Assembly: GCF_005490785.1 (NCBI RefSeq)
Contig: NZ_CP027295.1
Span: forward strand, 868,001-932,000
Length of the DNA: 64,000 nucleotides
Source of the DNA: Brachybacterium sp. SGAir0954
Lineage (GTDB): Bacteria; Actinomycetota; Actinomycetes; Actinomycetales; Dermabacteraceae
Direction of reading: 5' to 3'
How positions within the stretch are numbered: the stretch's first letter is position 1; every line of letters begins with the position of its first letter. The notes under the pieces were generated by a model that was not told the DNA's origin, did not search any database, and saw only the letters and a program-made list of their open reading frames with translations. Position numbers and translations under genes: made by a program. Below are positions 4,595 to 22,442 of the stretch, in pieces.

Positions 4595-5803
4595 ATGAGG
4601 CCGCTGCATGCGCATCCGCAGCATTACGCGTGGGGGTCCGCCGAGGAGCTGCCGCGCTTCCTCGGGAGGGATCCTGACGGCAGAGCGTGGGCGGAGCTCT
4701 GGTACGGGGCCCATCCCAGCGCCCCGTCGATCCTCGATGCCGCGGGGCCGCTGGACGCCGCGGTGACGGGGGACCCCCGGGGCATGCTCGGGGACGACGT
4801 GGTGAACGCCTTCGGCAGCCGCCTCCCGTACCTGCTCAAGCTCATCGCTCCCGAGCGCCCGCTCTCCCTGCAGGTCCACCCCTCACGCTCGCATGCGGCG
4901 GAGTCGTTCGCCGCCGAGAACGCCGCCGGGCTCCCGCTCGACTCACCCCATCGCAACTACCGGGACGACAACCACAAGCCAGAGATGGTCCTCGCGCTGA
5001 CGAAGTTCGAGGCGGTCTGCGGCTTCCGTGCGCCGCGCCGTGCCGCCCAGATCCTCGCGGGCCTGGACACCGATCTCTCCGATCGTCTCCACACCCTGCT
5101 GGTGGAGAACCTCAGTGCTCACGGGATGCGTGCCGCCTTCCGCACCCTGGTCTCGCCGTCCCTCCGGCCGGATGCCGCGGCCGTCGCCGAGGTCGTCGCA
5201 GCCTGCGAAGCCCGGGTCGCCGCCGGGGCCTCGCCCTCACCGCGGATCGACCGGACGGTGGTGCGCCTCCACGAGCATTTCCCCGGAGACCCGGGTGTCG
5301 TGGCCAACCTGCTGCTGAATCCCGTGACCCTGCAGCCGGGGGAGGCGATGTACGTCCCCGAGGGCGCGATCCACGCCTACCTCTCGGGATTCGGCGTCGA
5401 GGTGATGGCGGCGAGCGACAACGTGCTCCGGGCAGGCCTGACCGCGAAGCGGGTGGACGTCGAGGAGATGCTGCAGTGCGTGAGCGTGCAGGCCGCGCCG
5501 CCGCAACGGGTCGCTCCGGAGCGTCTGACCCCGAGCACGGTCGCCTATTTCGCGCCGATCGATGATTTTCAGCTCTCGGTCACGACGCTCGACGGGGGAG
5601 GGGACGTCGCCGACCCGGTCGCCCGGTACCTCGTGCCCGGCTCAGGACCGAGGATCCTGCTCTGCCTCGACGGCGAGCTGACCGTGAGCGCGGGCGGGAG
5701 CACGCTGCGTCTGCCCGCCGGCCGGGCGGTGTTCGTCGCCGCCGAGGACGGGGACCTGCACGTGGCAGGGCAAGGGCGAGTGATCCAGGCGTCGGTCCCG
5801 TAG
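4595..5803 (+). CDS. manA: Mannose-6-phosphate isomerase, class I
   Basis: 402 residues, normal length. Interconverts fructose-6-phosphate and mannose-6-phosphate, feeding GDP-mannose and cell-envelope glycans. Zinc ligands are readable: Q93 and H95 in SLQVHPSRSHA, E130 in NHKPEM, and H260 in GAIHAYLSGFGVEVM. The following SDNVLRAGLTAKRVD carries the conserved active-site arginine. The C-terminal 80 residues form the usual second cupin-like domain. A GGAG precedes the ATG by six bases. It lies downstream of the 345-residue unknown on the same strand and ends 9 bp from the convergent MauE-thioredoxin gene. Confidence 0.93.
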   Translation: MRPLHAHPQHYAWGSAEELPRFLGRDPDGRAWAELWYGAHPSAPSILDAAGPLDAAVTGDPRGMLGDDVVNAFGSRLPYLLKLIAPERPLSLQVHPSRSHAAESFAAENAAGLPLDSPHRNYRDDNHKPEMVLALTKFEAVCGFRAPRRAAQILAGLDTDLSDRLHTLLVENLSAHGMRAAFRTLVSPSLRPDAAAVAEVVAACEARVAAGASPSPRIDRTVVRLHEHFPGDPGVVANLLLNPVTLQPGEAMYVPEGAIHAYLSGFGVEVMAASDNVLRAGLTAKRVDVEEMLQCVSVQAAPPQRVAPERLTPSTVAYFAPIDDFQLSVTTLDGGGDVADPVARYLVPGSGPRILLCLDGELTVSAGGSTLRLPAGRAVFVAAEDGDLHVAGQGRVIQASVP

Positions 5804-5812
5804 CCGGCCCGA

Positions 5813-6859
5813 TCAGGCGGGGGTCGTGCTCTGCAGCTCCCCTGCCTCCTGAGCGGCGGTCACCTGGTCGAGGATCTCCTCGACGAGTTCGATGACCTGC
5901 TCACCCCCGGTCACGGGACCCCCGGCGAGCTGTCCATCCGCGCCCAAGAGCACTGCGGCGGGGGCGCCCCGGCTGCCGAGCTGCTCGCGGGCGGTGAACT
6001 GCGGGTCATACAGGGCGTGCTCCGCGACCCGGGCCTGCGTGCGCGGGGTGAGCCTGTCCTGAGGGGTGCGGAACACGGCGAGGACCTGCATGAACGGATC
6101 GAGCTTCTCGATCCAGGTCGGCATACGGTCCAGTACGCGCTCGCAGGGACCACAGCCCTCGGTCGCGAAGACGAGCAGCGCCGCTCGCTGGGAGGTGAGT
6201 TGGCGCAGGGTGACGAGGTCTCCGTCGGGACGCTGGAGCACCGCCGCCGGGATGGCGACACGCTCGTAATCGAGGAGATCGTCCTCCCCGTCCAGCTCGG
6301 CGTCGGCCGCCGTCGGCTCCGCTTCCGATCCGGGCTCCGCCGCACGCTCGACCCCGCCCAGCACGAGCACCACGAGCGCCATCGCCACCACGAGCACCAC
6401 CACGAGCGTGAGCAGCGACAGCGGCGCGCGCACGAGCGCATCGGCGATCTGGCCGCGCGCGGCGGCGGAGATCGTCACGAGCGCGAGGAAGGTGAGCAGC
6501 ATGTTCCGCGCGAGCGTCGCCTTCGAGACCGTGGGGGAGGCGAGCGAGCCGAAGCACGAGCACTCCACCTTCTCCTCGAAGGTCAGCGCCCGCGCGATGA
6601 TCACGAGGTACGCCGCCATCAGCAGCGTCGCGAGCACGGCGAGCACCACCTGCAGCGGCACGAGCGGCACCCACAGCAGCAGCGCGAGCACGATCTCCGC
6701 GCCCGGCAGCACGGCCGCGACGAGGTGGTGCGCGCGGCGCGCGGGAAGGCGCAGCGAGGTCATGGCGTCCTGCGTGCCGCGGCGCTCGCCGAGCTTCGCG
6801 ATGCCGGACACCAGCAGGATGATCGACAGCAGGATCGGCGCTGCCACCAGGATGCTCAT
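5813..6859 (-). CDS. MauE/DoxX-like membrane domain fused to thioredoxin-like domain
   Basis: 348 residues. Residues 1-165 hold about five hydrophobic segments of the MauE (methylamine utilisation) type with the pair C100-x-C102 in VECSCFG, a hallmark of that family. An acidic linker (about 172-198) leads to a thioredoxin/TlpA-like domain with CGPC at residues 236-239. MauE proteins are thought to support disulfide formation in exported proteins; here a membrane redox domain and its thioredoxin partner are one chain, so an envelope thiol-disulfide relay is the likely role (inference). Start at ATG with GAAGGG nearby; an upstream in-frame ATG lacks a ribosome site. No methylamine dehydrogenase genes are near. 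Confidence 0.8.
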   Translation of the reverse strand: MSILVAAPILLSIILLVSGIAKLGERRGTQDAMTSLRLPARRAHHLVAAVLPGAEIVLALLLWVPLVPLQVVLAVLATLLMAAYLVIIARALTFEEKVECSCFGSLASPTVSKATLARNMLLTFLALVTISAAARGQIADALVRAPLSLLTLVVVLVVAMALVVLVLGGVERAAEPGSEAEPTAADAELDGEDDLLDYERVAIPAAVLQRPDGDLVTLRQLTSQRAALLVFATEGCGPCERVLDRMPTWIEKLDPFMQVLAVFRTPQDRLTPRTQARVAEHALYDPQFTAREQLGSRGAPAAVLLGADGQLAGGPVTGGEQVIELVEEILDQVTAAQEAGELQSTTPA

Positions 6860-17170: not shown

Positions 17171-19500
17171 CCCCCACCGCCCCCGCCCTCCCCGCAGCCC
17201 TGCCGATCGGCTACCCGCGCATCGGCCCCGACCGCGAGCTGAAGAAGGCCGAGGAGGCCTACTGGGCCGGCCGGATCGACGCGGACGGCTTCGCCGAGGC
17301 CACCCGCACCCTGCGTCGCGCGACCCGCGCCCGCCTCGCCGAGCTGGGCCTCGCCGGCGCCTCCGCCGCACCCGAGTCGTTCTCCCTCTACGACCAGGTC
17401 CTCGACGCCGCCGTCGCGACCGGCATCGTCCCCACCCGCCTCGCCGGCGTGCTCGGCGCGGACGGCACCGTCGGCACCGACGGCTACTTCGAGCTCGCCC
17501 GCGGCACCGCCGAGCAGGGCCCCCTCGAGATGACCAAGTGGTTCGATACGAACTACCACCACCTCGTTCCCGAGATCGGCCCGGACACCGACCTCCACGT
17601 CGCGTCCACGCAGGTCGTCGACCTGTTCCGCGAGAGCCTCGAGGACGGCGAGGGCACCCGTCCGGCGCTCGTGGGCCCGCTGACCCTCCTGCTCCTGTCC
17701 AAGCCGGCCGACGACGCCCCCGAGGGCTTCGACCCCCTGGACCGCCTCGACGAGCTCGTCGCCGTCTACGCCCAGCTGCTCTCCGCCCTCCGTGAGGCCG
17801 GCGCCCCCTGGGTCCAGATCGAGGAGCCGGTACTCGCCGCTGACCAGCGCCTCGACGCCGCCCAGCTCGCCGAGGCCCTGCAGCGCTCCGTCGGCCGTCT
17901 CGCCGCCTCCGAGGACCGCCCCGCGATCCTCCTGGCCACCCCCTACGGCGGCATCGGCGACCTGCTCGCCGCCGCCCTCGCCACGGGCGTGGAGGCCGTG
18001 CACCTCGACCTCACCCGCGGTGACCTGCCGAGCGTCGCCCAGCTCACCGGCGTGGGCACCACCCGGATCGTCGCGGGCCTCGTCGAGGGCCGCACCGTGT
18101 GGCGCACCGAGCTGCCCACCGCCGCCGCGCGCCTCGCCGAGCTGCGCTCCCGCATCACCGAGGCCGGCGGCGACGGCGAGAACGTCTCCGTCTCCTCCTC
18201 CGTGTCCCTCCAGCACGTGCCGCACACCCTCGACCGGGAGACCTCCCTCCCCGCCGAGCTCGTCGCGACCCTCGCCTTCGCCGACGAGAAGATCGCCGAG
18301 ATCGTCGAGCTCGCCGCCGGCCAGGTCGCCCCGGGCTCCGTGGACGGCCCCCGCTCCGTGCCGCGCACCTTCGCAGGCGTCCGCGACGAGGCCGTGCGCG
18401 AGCGCGCCGCCGCCGTGACCGACGCGGACTCCACCCGCACCGACCACGAGGTGCGCGAGGAGGCACAGCGCCAGGCCCTCGGCCTCCCGGACCTGCCCAC
18501 CACCACCATCGGCTCCTTCCCGCAGGTCACGGAGGTGCGCCGCGCCCGCGCCGCCCACCGCCGCGGCACGCTCGACGCCGCCGGCTACGAGCAGGCGATG
18601 AAGGACGAGATCGCCCGCGTCATCACGCTGCAGGAGGAGCTCGGCCTGGACGTCCTCGTCCACGGCGAGCCCGAGCGCAACGACATGGTGCAGTACTTCG
18701 CCGAGAACCTCGACGGCTTCGCGGTCACCGAGCACGGCTGGGTGCAGTCCTACGGCTCCCGCTGCACGCGCCCGTCGATCCTCTTCGGCGACGTGTCCCG
18801 GCCCGCGCCGATCACCGTCCCCTGGGCCACCTACGCCCAGTCGCTCACCCCGCACCCCGTCAAGGGCATGCTCACCGGCCCGGTGACGATCCTCGCCTGG
18901 TCCTTCGTGCGCGACGACCAGCCGCTCGGCGAGACCGCCGACCAGGTGGGCCTCGCCCTGCGCGACGAGGTCGCCGACCTCGAGGCCGCCGGGATCCGCA
19001 TCATCCAGGTCGACGAGCCGGCGCTGCGCGAGCTGCTCCCGCTGCGCCGCGCGGACCACGCCGCCTACCTCGACTGGTCGGTGCGCTCGTTCCGCCTCGC
19101 CACCTCCGGCGTCGAGGACACCACGCAGATCCACACGCACCTGTGCTACTCCGAGTTCAACGTGGTCGTCGACGCGATCAACGCCCTGGACGCGGACGTC
19201 ACCTCCATCGAGTCCGCCCGCTCCCGCGGCGAGATCCTCGAGGCCGTGGACCCGGACGCCTTCCCCCGCGGCATCGGCCCGGGCGTATGGGACATCCACT
19301 CCCCGCGCGTGCCCACCACCGAGGAGATCGTGGACCAGCTGCGCCGCGCCCGCGCCGTGGTCGGTGCCCGCCGGCTCTGGGTGAACCCCGACTGCGGCCT
19401 CAAGACCCGCGCCTACGCGGAGACCGAGGCCAGCCTGCGCAACCTCGTCGCCGCCGCCCGCGCGACCCGCGAGGACGCGGAGGTCCCCGCCGCCGTCTGA
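17167..19500 (+). CDS. metE: Cobalamin-independent methionine synthase
   Basis: 777 residues, full length. Transfers the methyl group of 5-methyl-THF-polyglutamate to homocysteine, the last step of methionine synthesis, without B12. The N-terminal domain starts with the typical IGYPRIGPDRELKKAEEAYW. The C-terminal catalytic domain has TTTIGSFPQVTEVRRAR and the zinc ligands H658 and C660 in IHTHLCYSEF, plus C743 in NPDCGLKTR. It starts inside the metF stop codon. An isolated two-gene methionine unit; no riboswitch is visible upstream. The gene ends 77 bases before the first 60-bp palindrome. Confidence 0.96.
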   Translation: MTPTAPALPAALPIGYPRIGPDRELKKAEEAYWAGRIDADGFAEATRTLRRATRARLAELGLAGASAAPESFSLYDQVLDAAVATGIVPTRLAGVLGADGTVGTDGYFELARGTAEQGPLEMTKWFDTNYHHLVPEIGPDTDLHVASTQVVDLFRESLEDGEGTRPALVGPLTLLLLSKPADDAPEGFDPLDRLDELVAVYAQLLSALREAGAPWVQIEEPVLAADQRLDAAQLAEALQRSVGRLAASEDRPAILLATPYGGIGDLLAAALATGVEAVHLDLTRGDLPSVAQLTGVGTTRIVAGLVEGRTVWRTELPTAAARLAELRSRITEAGGDGENVSVSSSVSLQHVPHTLDRETSLPAELVATLAFADEKIAEIVELAAGQVAPGSVDGPRSVPRTFAGVRDEAVRERAAAVTDADSTRTDHEVREEAQRQALGLPDLPTTTIGSFPQVTEVRRARAAHRRGTLDAAGYEQAMKDEIARVITLQEELGLDVLVHGEPERNDMVQYFAENLDGFAVTEHGWVQSYGSRCTRPSILFGDVSRPAPITVPWATYAQSLTPHPVKGMLTGPVTILAWSFVRDDQPLGETADQVGLALRDEVADLEAAGIRIIQVDEPALRELLPLRRADHAAYLDWSVRSFRLATSGVEDTTQIHTHLCYSEFNVVVDAINALDADVTSIESARSRGEILEAVDPDAFPRGIGPGVWDIHSPRVPTTEEIVDQLRRARAVVGARRLWVNPDCGLKTRAYAETEASLRNLVAAARATREDAEVPAAV

Positions 19501-19577
19501 CCGCCCGGGCCGGGGCCCGGCTCCGGTCCGCCCCGGCCGCCGTCGGCCCGGCCCACGGCCCCGGCCCTCGTCGGCCT

Positions 19578-19637
19578 ACGGGACGTCATCGCGCAGGTCC
19601 CGCCGTTTCGGGGCCGATCTGCGCGGTGACGTCCCGT
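19578..19637. repeat. 60-bp palindromic element, copy 1
   Basis: Left arm 19578-19598 (ACGGGACGTCATCGCGCAGG plus T), 18-base centre, right arm 19617-19637. Arms match at 19 of 21 positions; in RNA both mismatches become G-U pairs, giving a 21-bp stem. The centre has a further small CCCG/CGGG pairing. Copy 2 (20740-20799) is 52/60 identical and exactly the same length. This copy lies just after metE and also encodes the last ~16 residues of the DUF559-type gene. It could act as a terminator, but the pairing of copies around one gene suggests a repeat family. Confidence 0.85.
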
Positions 19638-20590
19638 CCTCCTGCGGCACCCCGGCCCGGGTGCCCGGCGCGCGGATCCGTCAGTCCGGCGGCGGGGCAT
19701 CGCCGGTGGTCGCCGTGTCGGAGCACGGTGCGCAGCATGACCTCGGTCTCCGCCCACTCGAGGAACACCTGCTTCCACGTGAGCCGAGTGACCACGTAGC
19801 CGCGCGAACGCAGCGCGAGGTCCCGGGCCCGGTCGCGCTCGTAGACGTCCTCGGAGTCGTGGAACTCGCGGCTGTCGCACTCGATGATCCAGGACTCTCC
19901 CACCAGCAGGTCCACCCGCCCCACGCCGGGCACCACAACCTGGCTCCGCACCGGGATCCGCTGCGCCTCGCACCACCAGCGCACCCGAGTCTCCGTGCCC
20001 GAGCCCGCGTCGTGACGGATCCGAGCCAGGGTGCGGCGCGGGGTGTGCGGGAGGCCGGCGACGATCCGGCGCGCGTCATGGAGGGTGAGGCGGCGTCGCT
20101 CGATCGCGGACTCGAACAGGATCGCCGCCTCCACCGAGGGCAGGCACCTCGCGGCGTGATCGAGGACCAGGGGCAGGCTCGGCACCGGATCGGTTCCCGG
20201 CCAGGCGCGGGCGGCGGGCCCGTGGAACAGCAGCGGCATCTGCTTCTCCTGGAGCTTCGGCACGGGCTGGCCCTGGCGCCGGCGAAGGGGTATCGCCGTC
20301 GCGGCCGGCGGCGCCGCGTCGGGCAGGCGGGTGCCCCGTCCCATCCGCGGGCGGAACACGTGCACCGACTCGAGCCGAGGGGGCACCCAGAGACCGTGCA
20401 GCGAGGCGGCGTCGAGACAGGTGGGGCGCACGCCCATTGTCAGCAGGGCGACGAGATCCGCCGGGGCGCCGTCCTCGATGACCCAGGGTCCGATCCTGTG
20501 CGCGGTGCCCCCGTCGAGGGCGGCGGCGAGGTGCTTCGCGTGGTCCCCCGGCTGGACGGCGCGGTGATGGGTGACGCCGGTGATCTGCAT
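19586..20590 (-). CDS. DUF559/Vsr-like PD-(D/E)XK-fold protein with AbiEi-like N-terminus
   Basis: 334 residues. The C-terminal third looks like the DUF559 endonuclease-like domain: E200 in GTETRVRWWC, D227 in GRVDLLV, E237-C-D239 in WIIECDSREFH, and DRARDLALRSRGY then TRLTWKQV. These are the usual acidic positions of a PD-(D/E)XK-type site, although the EXK lysine is replaced (ECD). The N-terminal part (TMGVRPTCLDAASLHGLWVP) resembles the AbiEi-type antitoxin region common in actinobacterial members. Function unproven: nuclease, mobile-element or defence component. The last ~16 residues are encoded by the 60-bp palindrome, so the C-terminus may have been replaced on insertion. No ribosome site is obvious at the ATG. 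Confidence 0.75.
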   Translation of the reverse strand: MQITGVTHHRAVQPGDHAKHLAAALDGGTAHRIGPWVIEDGAPADLVALLTMGVRPTCLDAASLHGLWVPPRLESVHVFRPRMGRGTRLPDAAPPAATAIPLRRRQGQPVPKLQEKQMPLLFHGPAARAWPGTDPVPSLPLVLDHAARCLPSVEAAILFESAIERRRLTLHDARRIVAGLPHTPRRTLARIRHDAGSGTETRVRWWCEAQRIPVRSQVVVPGVGRVDLLVGESWIIECDSREFHDSEDVYERDRARDLALRSRGYVVTRLTWKQVFLEWAETEVMLRTVLRHGDHRRCPAAGLTDPRAGHPGRGAAGGRDVTAQIGPETAGPAR

Positions 20591-20739
20591 GGGGTGAGGG
20601 GATCACCGGGCGCCCTGGCGCGTCCGGGTGGGTGATGAAGATGTGGACGGCGACCGGCTGGGGAGGGACGACGCGTGGCCACCGGCGCCTCGGCATCTCG
20701 TGCCCCTCGGCTGACTCCGCCGCCATCAGTCACGAGCGC

Positions 20740-20799
20740 ACGGGACGTCATCGCGCAGGTGCCCCCGATTCGGGCCACATCTGCGCGAAGACGTCCCGT
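20740..20799. repeat. 60-bp palindromic element, copy 2
   Basis: Left arm 20740-20760 is identical to copy 1. The centre is 18 bases (12 of 18 shared with copy 1). The right arm 20779-20799 differs from copy 1 at two positions (AA for GT). It lies 149 bp upstream of the DUF559-type gene and 65 bp before the alarmone synthetase start, inside the 274-base gap between these divergent genes. Outside the 60 bases the two copies share no flanking sequence, so the borders are sharp. Confidence 0.85.
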
Positions 20800-20864
20800 G
20801 CCCGACCACGGCGACGTCGGGGTGGGGGCCTAGGGTGGGCGCAGACGCACAGGGGGAGGACCGC

Positions 20865-22442
20865 ATGGCACGACGGACGAACGGCGGCTCGGCAGGCAAC
20901 CGCGACACGGCCGGCAATGGCGGCGCGGCAGGCAACGGTGGCGCCACCGCCACCGCCACCGGCACCGGCAACCGCGAGGCGGCAGGCAACGGCGGCGCCA
21001 CCGGCAACGGCGGCGCCGCCGCAGGCGACACGGCTGCCAAGGCCGTGGCGCCCGTCGACGCCTCGCTCTGGGAGTGGCTGCCGCAGGCGGCGCACGAGGT
21101 CGAGGAGGGGCTGCGGGGGCTGCTCTCCGAGGCGTCGATCAACGCCCATGACGTGACGGCGCGCGCCAAGCGCTACGAGTCCTTCGTCGAGAAGTGCCGC
21201 CAGAAGGGCTACACGGAGCCGCTGCGGCAGGTGACGGACACGGTCGCAGTGCGGCTGATCATGTACTCGGCGACGGATCGCGAGCGGGCGTCGGAGCTTG
21301 TCAGGGAGCAGTTCGAGCTCGCGGAGGATCTCGACACGAGCGAGCGTGACACGGCCTCGCCCGCGCGCCGCGGCTACGACTCGACGCACCTCGTGGCGGT
21401 CGCGGAGCGGGAGGACGCCGAGCATCCGGTCGCGCCGCGCGGGTCGAGCCTCGACCGCTACTTCCGCACCTTCGGCGGCCTCGAGATCCAGATCCGCACG
21501 GTCGCCGCGCACGCCTGGGCGGAGTTCGAGCACGCCCGCCGCTACAAGGGCGAGGGCTACAAGGCCGTCGGCGACCTGGACCGGCTCACGATCGACCAGC
21601 TCTTCGGGGCGGCGGCGGATGCCCGGCACGCGCTCGACGAGATCTTCGTGGCGATCGACCGGGTGCTCGCGAACCCCGCCGGCTCCGCCGCGGCCGATCA
21701 TGCCGATGCCGCGGAGGACGGCGCGGAGGAGGAGACGACGGCGCCGGAGGTCGAGCTGCTCGACGTCGAGGCGCTCACCGCGTACCTCGCGCGCCGCTTC
21801 CCGGAGGACTCCGAGGGCTCGGAGCGGGGCGTCGCCTTCGCCCTCGAGCTCGTGCAGGCCTGCGGGCTGCGCACGGTGCGGGGCCTGGACGCGGAGCTCT
21901 CCGCGATCGACGGCGCGGAGGTGCGCCGGCTGATGGACACGTCGACGACCGTCACGCGCGTGCGCCGCCTGGACGACGAGCTGCTCGCGGTGCTCGGCGA
22001 GGAGTACATCGAGCGCACGGCGAGCATCGGCAACAGCTCACGGCGCGGTGACCAGCTGCGATGGCGGTACGACCGTCTGCGCGGCAAGGTCACGGTGCGC
22101 CGTCGGACGGTCACGTACCAGCTCTTCGGGGCCGATGTCCCCGCCGATCTCACGGGTCACGCGATCCCCGCGGTGCGGGCGGTGCGGGAGGTCGCCCGGA
22201 TCGTCGCGACGGTCGAGGGCTCCGCGCAGGTGGTGCGCGACGGGGCGATCAGCCGCCTCGAGGACCTCCCGCTCGAGGCCCGCGCGCGCCCCGTGCGCCT
22301 GGCCGACGGCACCACGCTCTGGGTCGCGACGGCGCTGGGCCGACGGGCCGCGGAGCGCCTGCTCGAGGACCTCCTCGACGGTGCCGAGCGCACCGACGTG
22401 CGGGTGCTGCGCAACGGCGAGCCGCTGGCCACGGGCGGCTGA
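20865..22442 (+). CDS. Stand-alone (p)ppGpp synthetase (RelA/SpoT synthetase domain) with long C-terminal extension
   Basis: 525 residues. Residues 5-55 are a low-complexity Gly/Asn/Ala repeat (AGNGGA-type units). The synthetase domain spans about 90-270: ARAKRYESFVEK (100-110, ATP-binding R-x-K-xxx-S-xxx-K), metal ligand D125 in VTDTVAVRL, GYDSTH (170-175), EIQIRT (207-212) and HAWAEFEH (216-223) with the catalytic glutamate. No HD hydrolase domain is present, so it resembles a small alarmone synthetase, but these are usually 200-260 residues; residues 270-525 are an extra, unrecognised acidic region. It should make (p)ppGpp from ATP and GTP/GDP. GGGGGAGGA precedes the ATG. Divergent from the DUF559-type gene. 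Confidence 0.85.
   Translation: MARRTNGGSAGNRDTAGNGGAAGNGGATATATGTGNREAAGNGGATGNGGAAAGDTAAKAVAPVDASLWEWLPQAAHEVEEGLRGLLSEASINAHDVTARAKRYESFVEKCRQKGYTEPLRQVTDTVAVRLIMYSATDRERASELVREQFELAEDLDTSERDTASPARRGYDSTHLVAVAEREDAEHPVAPRGSSLDRYFRTFGGLEIQIRTVAAHAWAEFEHARRYKGEGYKAVGDLDRLTIDQLFGAAADARHALDEIFVAIDRVLANPAGSAAADHADAAEDGAEEETTAPEVELLDVEALTAYLARRFPEDSEGSERGVAFALELVQACGLRTVRGLDAELSAIDGAEVRRLMDTSTTVTRVRRLDDELLAVLGEEYIERTASIGNSSRRGDQLRWRYDRLRGKVTVRRRTVTYQLFGADVPADLTGHAIPAVRAVREVARIVATVEGSAQVVRDGAISRLEDLPLEARARPVRLADGTTLWVATALGRRAAERLLEDLLDGAERTDVRVLRNGEPLATGG

Follow-up and report, generated by a model that had tools for sequence, protein, structure and literature searches.

Our analysis points to a partnership between an enzyme and a palindrome that resembles REP/RAYT systems, yet is distinct from them, and is apparently undescribed. 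About half of the members of a nuclease family are bracketed by palindromes whose sequence is specific to the gene, and where we followed such palindromes they were dispersed elsewhere as well. We lean slightly towards the view that gene and flanking palindromes belong together as a single element, in which the nuclease works with a cognate palindrome in a REP/RAYT-like way, with unrelated parts.

The locus lies in a 64-kb window, the whole stretch of DNA that was analysed (positions 868001-932000 of the 3,410,111-bp single-contig genome of a Brachybacterium, G000), between metE (Meth_synt_1/2) and a RelA_SpoT gene (both by Pfam). Its features, in window coordinates, are as follows:

19578..20799, no strand: whole palindrome-nuclease-palindrome unit, 1222 bp, missing at the equivalent place in the congener G002
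19578..19637, no strand: palindrome 3' of the gene; its arms are A-type (ACGGGACGTC..CGCGCAG) and its centre resembles B-type elements; single-stranded DNA hairpin of -25.2 kcal/mol, z -5.4
20740..20799, no strand: palindrome 5' of the gene, likewise with A-type arms and with 52/60 identity to the other copy; single-stranded DNA hairpin of -30.2 kcal/mol, z -8.3
19586..20590, minus strand: nuclease gene, read as 334 aa; relatives stop near residue 300-315
20015..20590, minus strand: front half of the protein, residues 1-192, putatively AbiEi-antitoxin-like in its predicted model and the presumed palindrome binder; AlphaFold2 pLDDT 89.0 for this part alone
19715..20008, minus strand: nuclease domain, residues 195-292, with a predicted Vsr-like/EDxHD-like fold

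Both 60-bp palindromes reported in the earlier note were recovered at exactly these positions with 87% identity, and the 21-18-21 architecture described there was confirmed, with 21-bp arms pairing around an 18-nt centre in each copy. By eye, the terminal ACGGGAC and GTCCCGT are paired, and the sequences beyond the 60 bp of either copy show no relatedness. With three mismatches allowed, the 20-base arm was matched four times in the 64-kb window, against 0.07 expected, and 0/100 shuffles reached four. A search of Rfam with positions 19400-20900 returned no known RNA family up to E 1. We also noticed, at the start of the RelA/SpoT gene (20877-21049), an imperfect repeat with 18-bp spacing and abundant Gly, Asn and Ala codons.

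The protein is predicted, on the basis of its structural model, to be a fusion of a putatively AbiEi-antitoxin-like front half with a Vsr/EDxHD-like nuclease domain. The AlphaFold2 model of the whole protein (window protein with 21 relatives) had a pLDDT of 85.5 and a pTM of 0.82. Foldseek with the whole predicted protein returned nothing at E 0.001; its best match was the catalytic domain of I-Bth0305I (3r3p; prob 1.00, E 1.6e-3, TM 0.74 of target), followed by Rv2827c, with NGO0050 (3hrl, prob 1.00) at rank 8. For the front half alone the top three rows were 1zel (two chains) and 6y8q, the AbiEi-family antitoxins Rv2827c and AbiEi, with weak scores (prob 0.69-0.96, E 1.2e-3 to 1.3e-2, TM 0.23-0.38). 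Residues E200, E208, D227, E237, D239 and H244 were invariant in 27/27 proteins. The protein had earlier been called DUF559/Vsr-like: the Vsr-like part agrees with the predicted fold, but the best Pfam family was MTES_1575 (PF18741; 29.3 bits, E 9.4e-7, under the gathering cut-off of 38.2), and DUF559 (PF04480) reached only 14.1 bits, under its cut-off of 20.6. At E 0.01, MTES_1575 matched 22/22 family members and DUF559 11/22, and a search of the own genome for DUF559 at E 0.001 gave 0 matches. No match was obtained in a PDB sequence search with the protein, nor any entry naming it in NCBIfam and PADLOC. The last ~16 codons do fall within the 19578 element, as had been observed; this C-terminal tail is, however, probably read-through and not a functional part, because 26 aligned relatives end ~20-35 residues sooner.

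Copies in the own genome were collected by the arm pattern, by model R1 (alignment A1, 10 copies), and by genome and local searches. They number 17 at nine places and are often paired; the pair previously described indeed brackets one gene, the nuclease gene, but the repeat number is 17 in the whole genome and not two. The copies start at 256152, 256266, 264769, 264859, 405647, 405789, 718026, 718107, 718196, 718268, 796749, 859049, 887578, 888740, 1179970, 1462199 and 1462272 (the last picked up by local search alone, 31 bits), and 16 are 60 bp long and one 61 bp. Two arm types were distinguished, A (ACGGGACGTC-N-TCGCGCAG) and B (ACGGGAC-S-TCTTCGTACGGG), the latter in 7/17 copies. At five places A and B are neighbours, 12-81 bp apart, three places hold a single copy, and in the window pair 1.1 kb with the nuclease gene inside separates the two. 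Some pairs have a common centre (at 264 kb, at 405 kb and in the window), and no B-armed pair was found around a nuclease gene in the own genome. Model R1 gave one marginal match each in two of 23 congeners and no match in 14 further genomes of the order.

Some further peculiarities of the own-genome copies were noticed. The copy at G000:C1:859049-859108 (L013:4050-4109) is a hybrid: one of its arms is A-type and the other B-type, as though recombination at the centre had joined the two. At G000:C1:718026-718327 (L012:4027-4328) four copies form a row A-B-A-B with 72-89 bp spacing. All nine places (256-1462 kb) are in the half of the chromosome nearer to the origin, with dnaA at 631491 taken as origin; their maximum distance from it is 831 kb of 1705 (P 0.0015 vs random places).

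In relatives, searches with the same arms gave matches at about the backward-control rate in most genomes, and an end pattern and a covariance model were needed to find their palindromes. The end-only pattern ACGGGAC, 40-52 N, GTCCCGT was run on 38 genomes of the genus, with 0-2 matches per genome for the backwards pattern. It detected 58-60-bp palindromes with these ends and differing inner arms in G007, G009, G011, G038, G043 and G049, along with non-palindromic matches that apparently arose by chance; in G011 two such palindromes, separated by 1.1 kb, enclose a homologue of the window gene. The same-sequence search of other genomes proposed in the earlier note would have missed the gene-linked palindromes of congeners, since a different gene has a different palindrome. 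The window protein itself matched 35/38 genomes, 29 of them with E < 1e-60. Homologues at palindrome-bracketed loci have 31-58% identity with it, and the named relative loci belong to Brachybacterium (22/24) and Trueperella (2/24).

The bracketing was tested at 70 of 73 listed gene places, comprising 30 best-match loci and 40 further ones (second copies and distant paralogues). A matched pair was defined as palindromes of 48-73 bp with at least 15/20 arm pairs, one in each 600-bp flank, both at least 0.6 similar over 48 central positions. Such a pair was present at 33/70 nuclease loci (17/30 best-match and 16/40 further loci) and in 0/177 control intervals, for which the Fisher value of 9e-22 is only nominal, since the control intervals overlap and include coding DNA. 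The control intervals were 900 bp long and began every 300 bp; their sources were 21 random loci of congeners and all 16 fumC loci lacking the nuclease, 35/37 of which were long enough; four of the 177 had palindromes on both sides, with a top similarity of 0.48, and none passed. The test failed at 37/70 nuclease loci, and at nine of the 70 (L113, L115, L117, L118, L233, L236, L240, L257 and L258) neither flank had a palindrome even at the loosest threshold. In the nuclease protein tree the matched label was dispersed (33/63 rows, one added by hand). The nuclease-associated palindromic repeat system recalling REP/RAYT that had been suggested from the window alone is supported by this comparison: with 17 copies and bracketed homologous genes, the repeats are neither abundant without a link to the gene nor confined to this locus.

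The palindrome differs from gene to gene, also between paralogues of one genome. The upstream and downstream palindromes of one locus had a median similarity of 0.79 (n=20), and palindromes of different genomes 0.42 (n=261; 95th percentile 0.60). For paralogues within one genome, palindromes were 0.35-0.52 similar vs 0.65-1.00 within a locus in 7/7 genomes compared. Over 16 loci, palindrome similarity correlated with nuclease-domain similarity (r 0.43) and with winged-helix similarity (r 0.23; partial r -0.01); the winged-helix part was not supported as the determinant of specificity, as its correlation was gone once nuclease similarity was allowed for. Outside the genus, the Trueperella bernardiae homologue (31%) has an inverted ~77-bp palindromic repeat on both sides and two more copies close by, whereas no matched pair was found for three Tsukamurella plasmid homologues of one strain. 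The four T. bernardiae copies lie within 4 kb of L153 (2138-2214, 2302-2378, about 4670-4746 and 5871-6009). A viral-contig match to this repeat was discarded as chance; it lies inside a phage reading frame.

Dispersed copies in other genomes were sought with model R2, built from 14 palindromes of six genomes, with matches counted on both strands (about two per site). R2 matched in 24/38 genus genomes. The repeat number tracked with the gene, as the earlier note had proposed to examine: at least four matches were present in 19/29 genomes with an orthologue vs 1/9 without (P 0.007, kinship ignored), a comparison that favours the genomes that supplied the model. The palindrome closest to a dispersed copy was the one flanking the gene of its own genome in 21/28 cases (own genome 12/15, others 9/13; G007 0/3 and G013 0/1). 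By eye, the 13 fetched copies of G042, G044 and G016 were unlike the palindromes at their nuclease orthologue and thus of another type; therefore not every palindrome family has its nuclease adjoining. Five of six fetched G044 sites also hold a copy in G042 or G016, which makes these copies old and inherited. The palindromes of these three genomes (L273-L285) are often ~10 bp longer on each side (TGTCNNGG..CCNNGACA), and several are at places common to sister species.

Crude ORF calls at 17 dispersed places of five genomes put 12 between co-directional, four between convergent and one between divergent genes, and 14/17 were free of overlap with these ORFs. This intergenic position would be compatible with an AbiEi-like self-regulator. 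In that case the upstream palindrome would be its operator, the downstream one would act as a terminator, the dispersed copies would be a regulon or decoys, and the nuclease would serve phage defence. Repression of their own promoter by AbiEi antitoxins works through inverted repeats (PMC7319586), and PADLOC gave a weak AbiEi match in 1/22 members. However, the best upstream palindrome lies a median of 210 bp (97-370) before the start codon at 17 matched loci, a matching copy also stands 3' of the gene, which is not an operator layout, only the one dispersed place is between divergent genes, and the dispersed families differ among congeners. We therefore regard such a regulatory role as unlikely.

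Empty sites, which had been suggested as a check, were found at two places. In G002 the metE and RelA/SpoT genes are adjacent, 163 nt apart vs 1338 in the window, with neither nuclease nor palindrome between them. At a second place, next to fumC and with what we take to be a PhoH-like gene as the other neighbour, the nuclease was present in 14/30 fetched loci, and the place was empty in G039, G042 and G044. As each of the two sites is matched by an empty counterpart in other species, palindrome, gene and palindrome behave as a unit. Flank comparison assigned most of the 30 gene loci to a few conserved places, one of them common to 14-15 genomes, yet the palindromes differ among these; movement of the unit has therefore been rare, and the palindromes change without leaving their place. 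Inspection of nine places revealed no target-site duplication, and the empty intergenic sequences were too diverged for exact element boundaries. Of the mobile and defensive roles raised in the earlier note, amplification and empty sites favour mobility, and the nuclease would be the mobilising agent.

Filled and empty alleles at two places, together with a nuclease domain that in the predicted fold is closest to I-Bth0305I, could also suggest a homing endonuclease. It would cut the empty intergenic allele, repair would copy the unit in, and the palindromes would be ends protecting the filled allele. We consider this quite improbable, since the unit is intergenic and has no conserved target visible by eye, and homing alone leaves both the palindromes without a gene and their gene-specific sequence unexplained.

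The arms combine hairpin symmetry with changes on both sides. In alignment A5, 16/26 pairs had changed on both sides, with 42 such cells vs 17.6 in shuffled alignments and 4-8 in slid controls, and G-U in 15/364 cells. The signal was weaker in alignment A6 (own-genome copies), with 26 both-side cells vs 13.3 shuffled; pairs changed on both sides (7 vs 5.7) and pair types (13 vs 13.8), two of five measures, were not above shuffles. Folded as single-stranded DNA, six elements gave -25 to -35 kcal/mol (z -5 to -13). At five orthologous dispersed sites, five pairs were changed on both sides and still paired, two were changed on both sides otherwise and 35 on one side, and this symmetric change was not significant vs coincidence of any kind (P 0.19) and is given no weight here. 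Both-side changes would arise from selection on a symmetric site or cruciform, or equally from template-switch repair.

Palindromes also occur apart from the nuclease. Background ones with at least 16/20 arm pairs numbered nine in 60.6 kb of random congener loci and six in 68.1 kb of fumC loci without the nuclease, and lone near-perfect palindromes of 48-57 bp and other sequences stand directly downstream of metE, with no nuclease gene, in G017, G041 and G016 (L190, L191 and L198). Such observations would suit ordinary gene-end stem-loops (terminators), locally duplicated or kept perfect by template-switch repair and only incidentally linked to the nuclease, but the matched pairs at nuclease loci and not in control intervals, the gene-specific sequence and the failure to find a T-tailed terminator at the window unit (19400-21000) make this explanation very improbable.

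In the slightly favoured reading of a nuclease with its cognate palindrome, the AbiEi-like front half probably recognises the palindrome as two symmetric half-sites of ~21-26 bp, a size that the 23-bp repeats of AbiEi fit (PMC7319586), and the Vsr-like domain would nick or cut DNA at or near the palindrome. When the cut is repaired, palindromes could be copied to other intergenic places, singly or as closely spaced pairs lacking the gene; the copies of one genome would stay alike, and the whole unit would occasionally move. A nuclease gene tends to possess a palindrome family of its own, and inheritance of the nuclease is mostly vertical. A further-reaching account is put forward tentatively. 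AbiEi-Vsr fusion nucleases would each bind and cut their own palindrome of ~50-70 bp, spread it along the chromosome by cut-and-repair copying, keep its arms symmetric and re-specify it so quickly that sister species and sister paralogues end up with unrelated palindromes; this would be another class of bacterial self-spreading palindrome system, one without an HUH transposase.

REP palindromes are tied to one enzyme family, the RAYTs, and CGTC-type REPs are noted as being without a dedicated transposase (PMC3733652). If our reading is true, the spread and persistence of short palindromes in genomes would have a second, independent solution, in which the nuclease has a different fold and every gene its own palindrome family. 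The family would also offer a natural panel of enzyme-site pairs with shifting specificity for work on DNA recognition, and might give a function to actinobacterial proteins whose only annotation is 'AbiEi family antitoxin domain' or DUF559-like. Judged by titles and the starts of abstracts, the matches listed contained no earlier description of a nuclease-palindrome partnership, and the two listed papers with both DUF559 and palindromes gave no palindrome partner.

Among known systems, Pfam MTES_1575/DUF559 proteins are matched by members of the family, with the window protein under both cut-offs. EDxHD/Vsr-like homing endonucleases such as I-Bth0305I share the predicted fold of the catalytic domain and conserved acidic and histidine residues; unlike them, the unit is intergenic, shows no sign of an intron or intein, and has its own palindromes at its ends and elsewhere. 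The AbiE type IV toxin-antitoxin system may be similar in the front half, whose best, weakly scoring structural matches are AbiEi-family antitoxins. In AbiEi and Rv2827c the bound sites are paired inverted repeats of 23 bp, with 3 bp between them in AbiEi, and neither protein bound the other's repeats (PMC7319586). In contrast to AbiE, the Pfam neighbours at the window locus are Meth_synt and RelA_SpoT, with no AbiEii-type toxin, the protein has a C-terminal nuclease, and the palindromes flank both sides and are dispersed.

REPs occur in high copy numbers and are 20-40 bp long, whereas here about 17 copies were found and the palindromes measure about 50-70 bp. By eye, they have no unpaired GTAG/CGTC end tag; CGTC lies within the paired A arm. 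RAYT is a Y1 HUH tyrosine transposase, in place of which an AbiEi-like part and a Vsr/EDxHD-like nuclease are predicted here. A search for Y1_Tnp (PF01797) gave 0 matches in the own genome and was positive in 5/14 control genomes, and a RAYT/Y1 transposase was thus ruled out as the enzyme. As the Y1 transposase and the unpaired tag were tested and absent, the system is not REP/RAYT by membership. It is like REP/RAYT in that the palindromes on either side of a gene have further family members scattered over that genome. Moreover, PMC3733652 describes some REP families as species-specific, with copies often close together and mostly between co-directional or convergent genes, and the dispersed Brachybacterium palindromes are likewise mostly so placed. 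RAYTs are single-copy and vertically inherited (PMC8049555). By analogy, REP/RAYT would be the closest counterpart of the nuclease and its palindromes in way of working.
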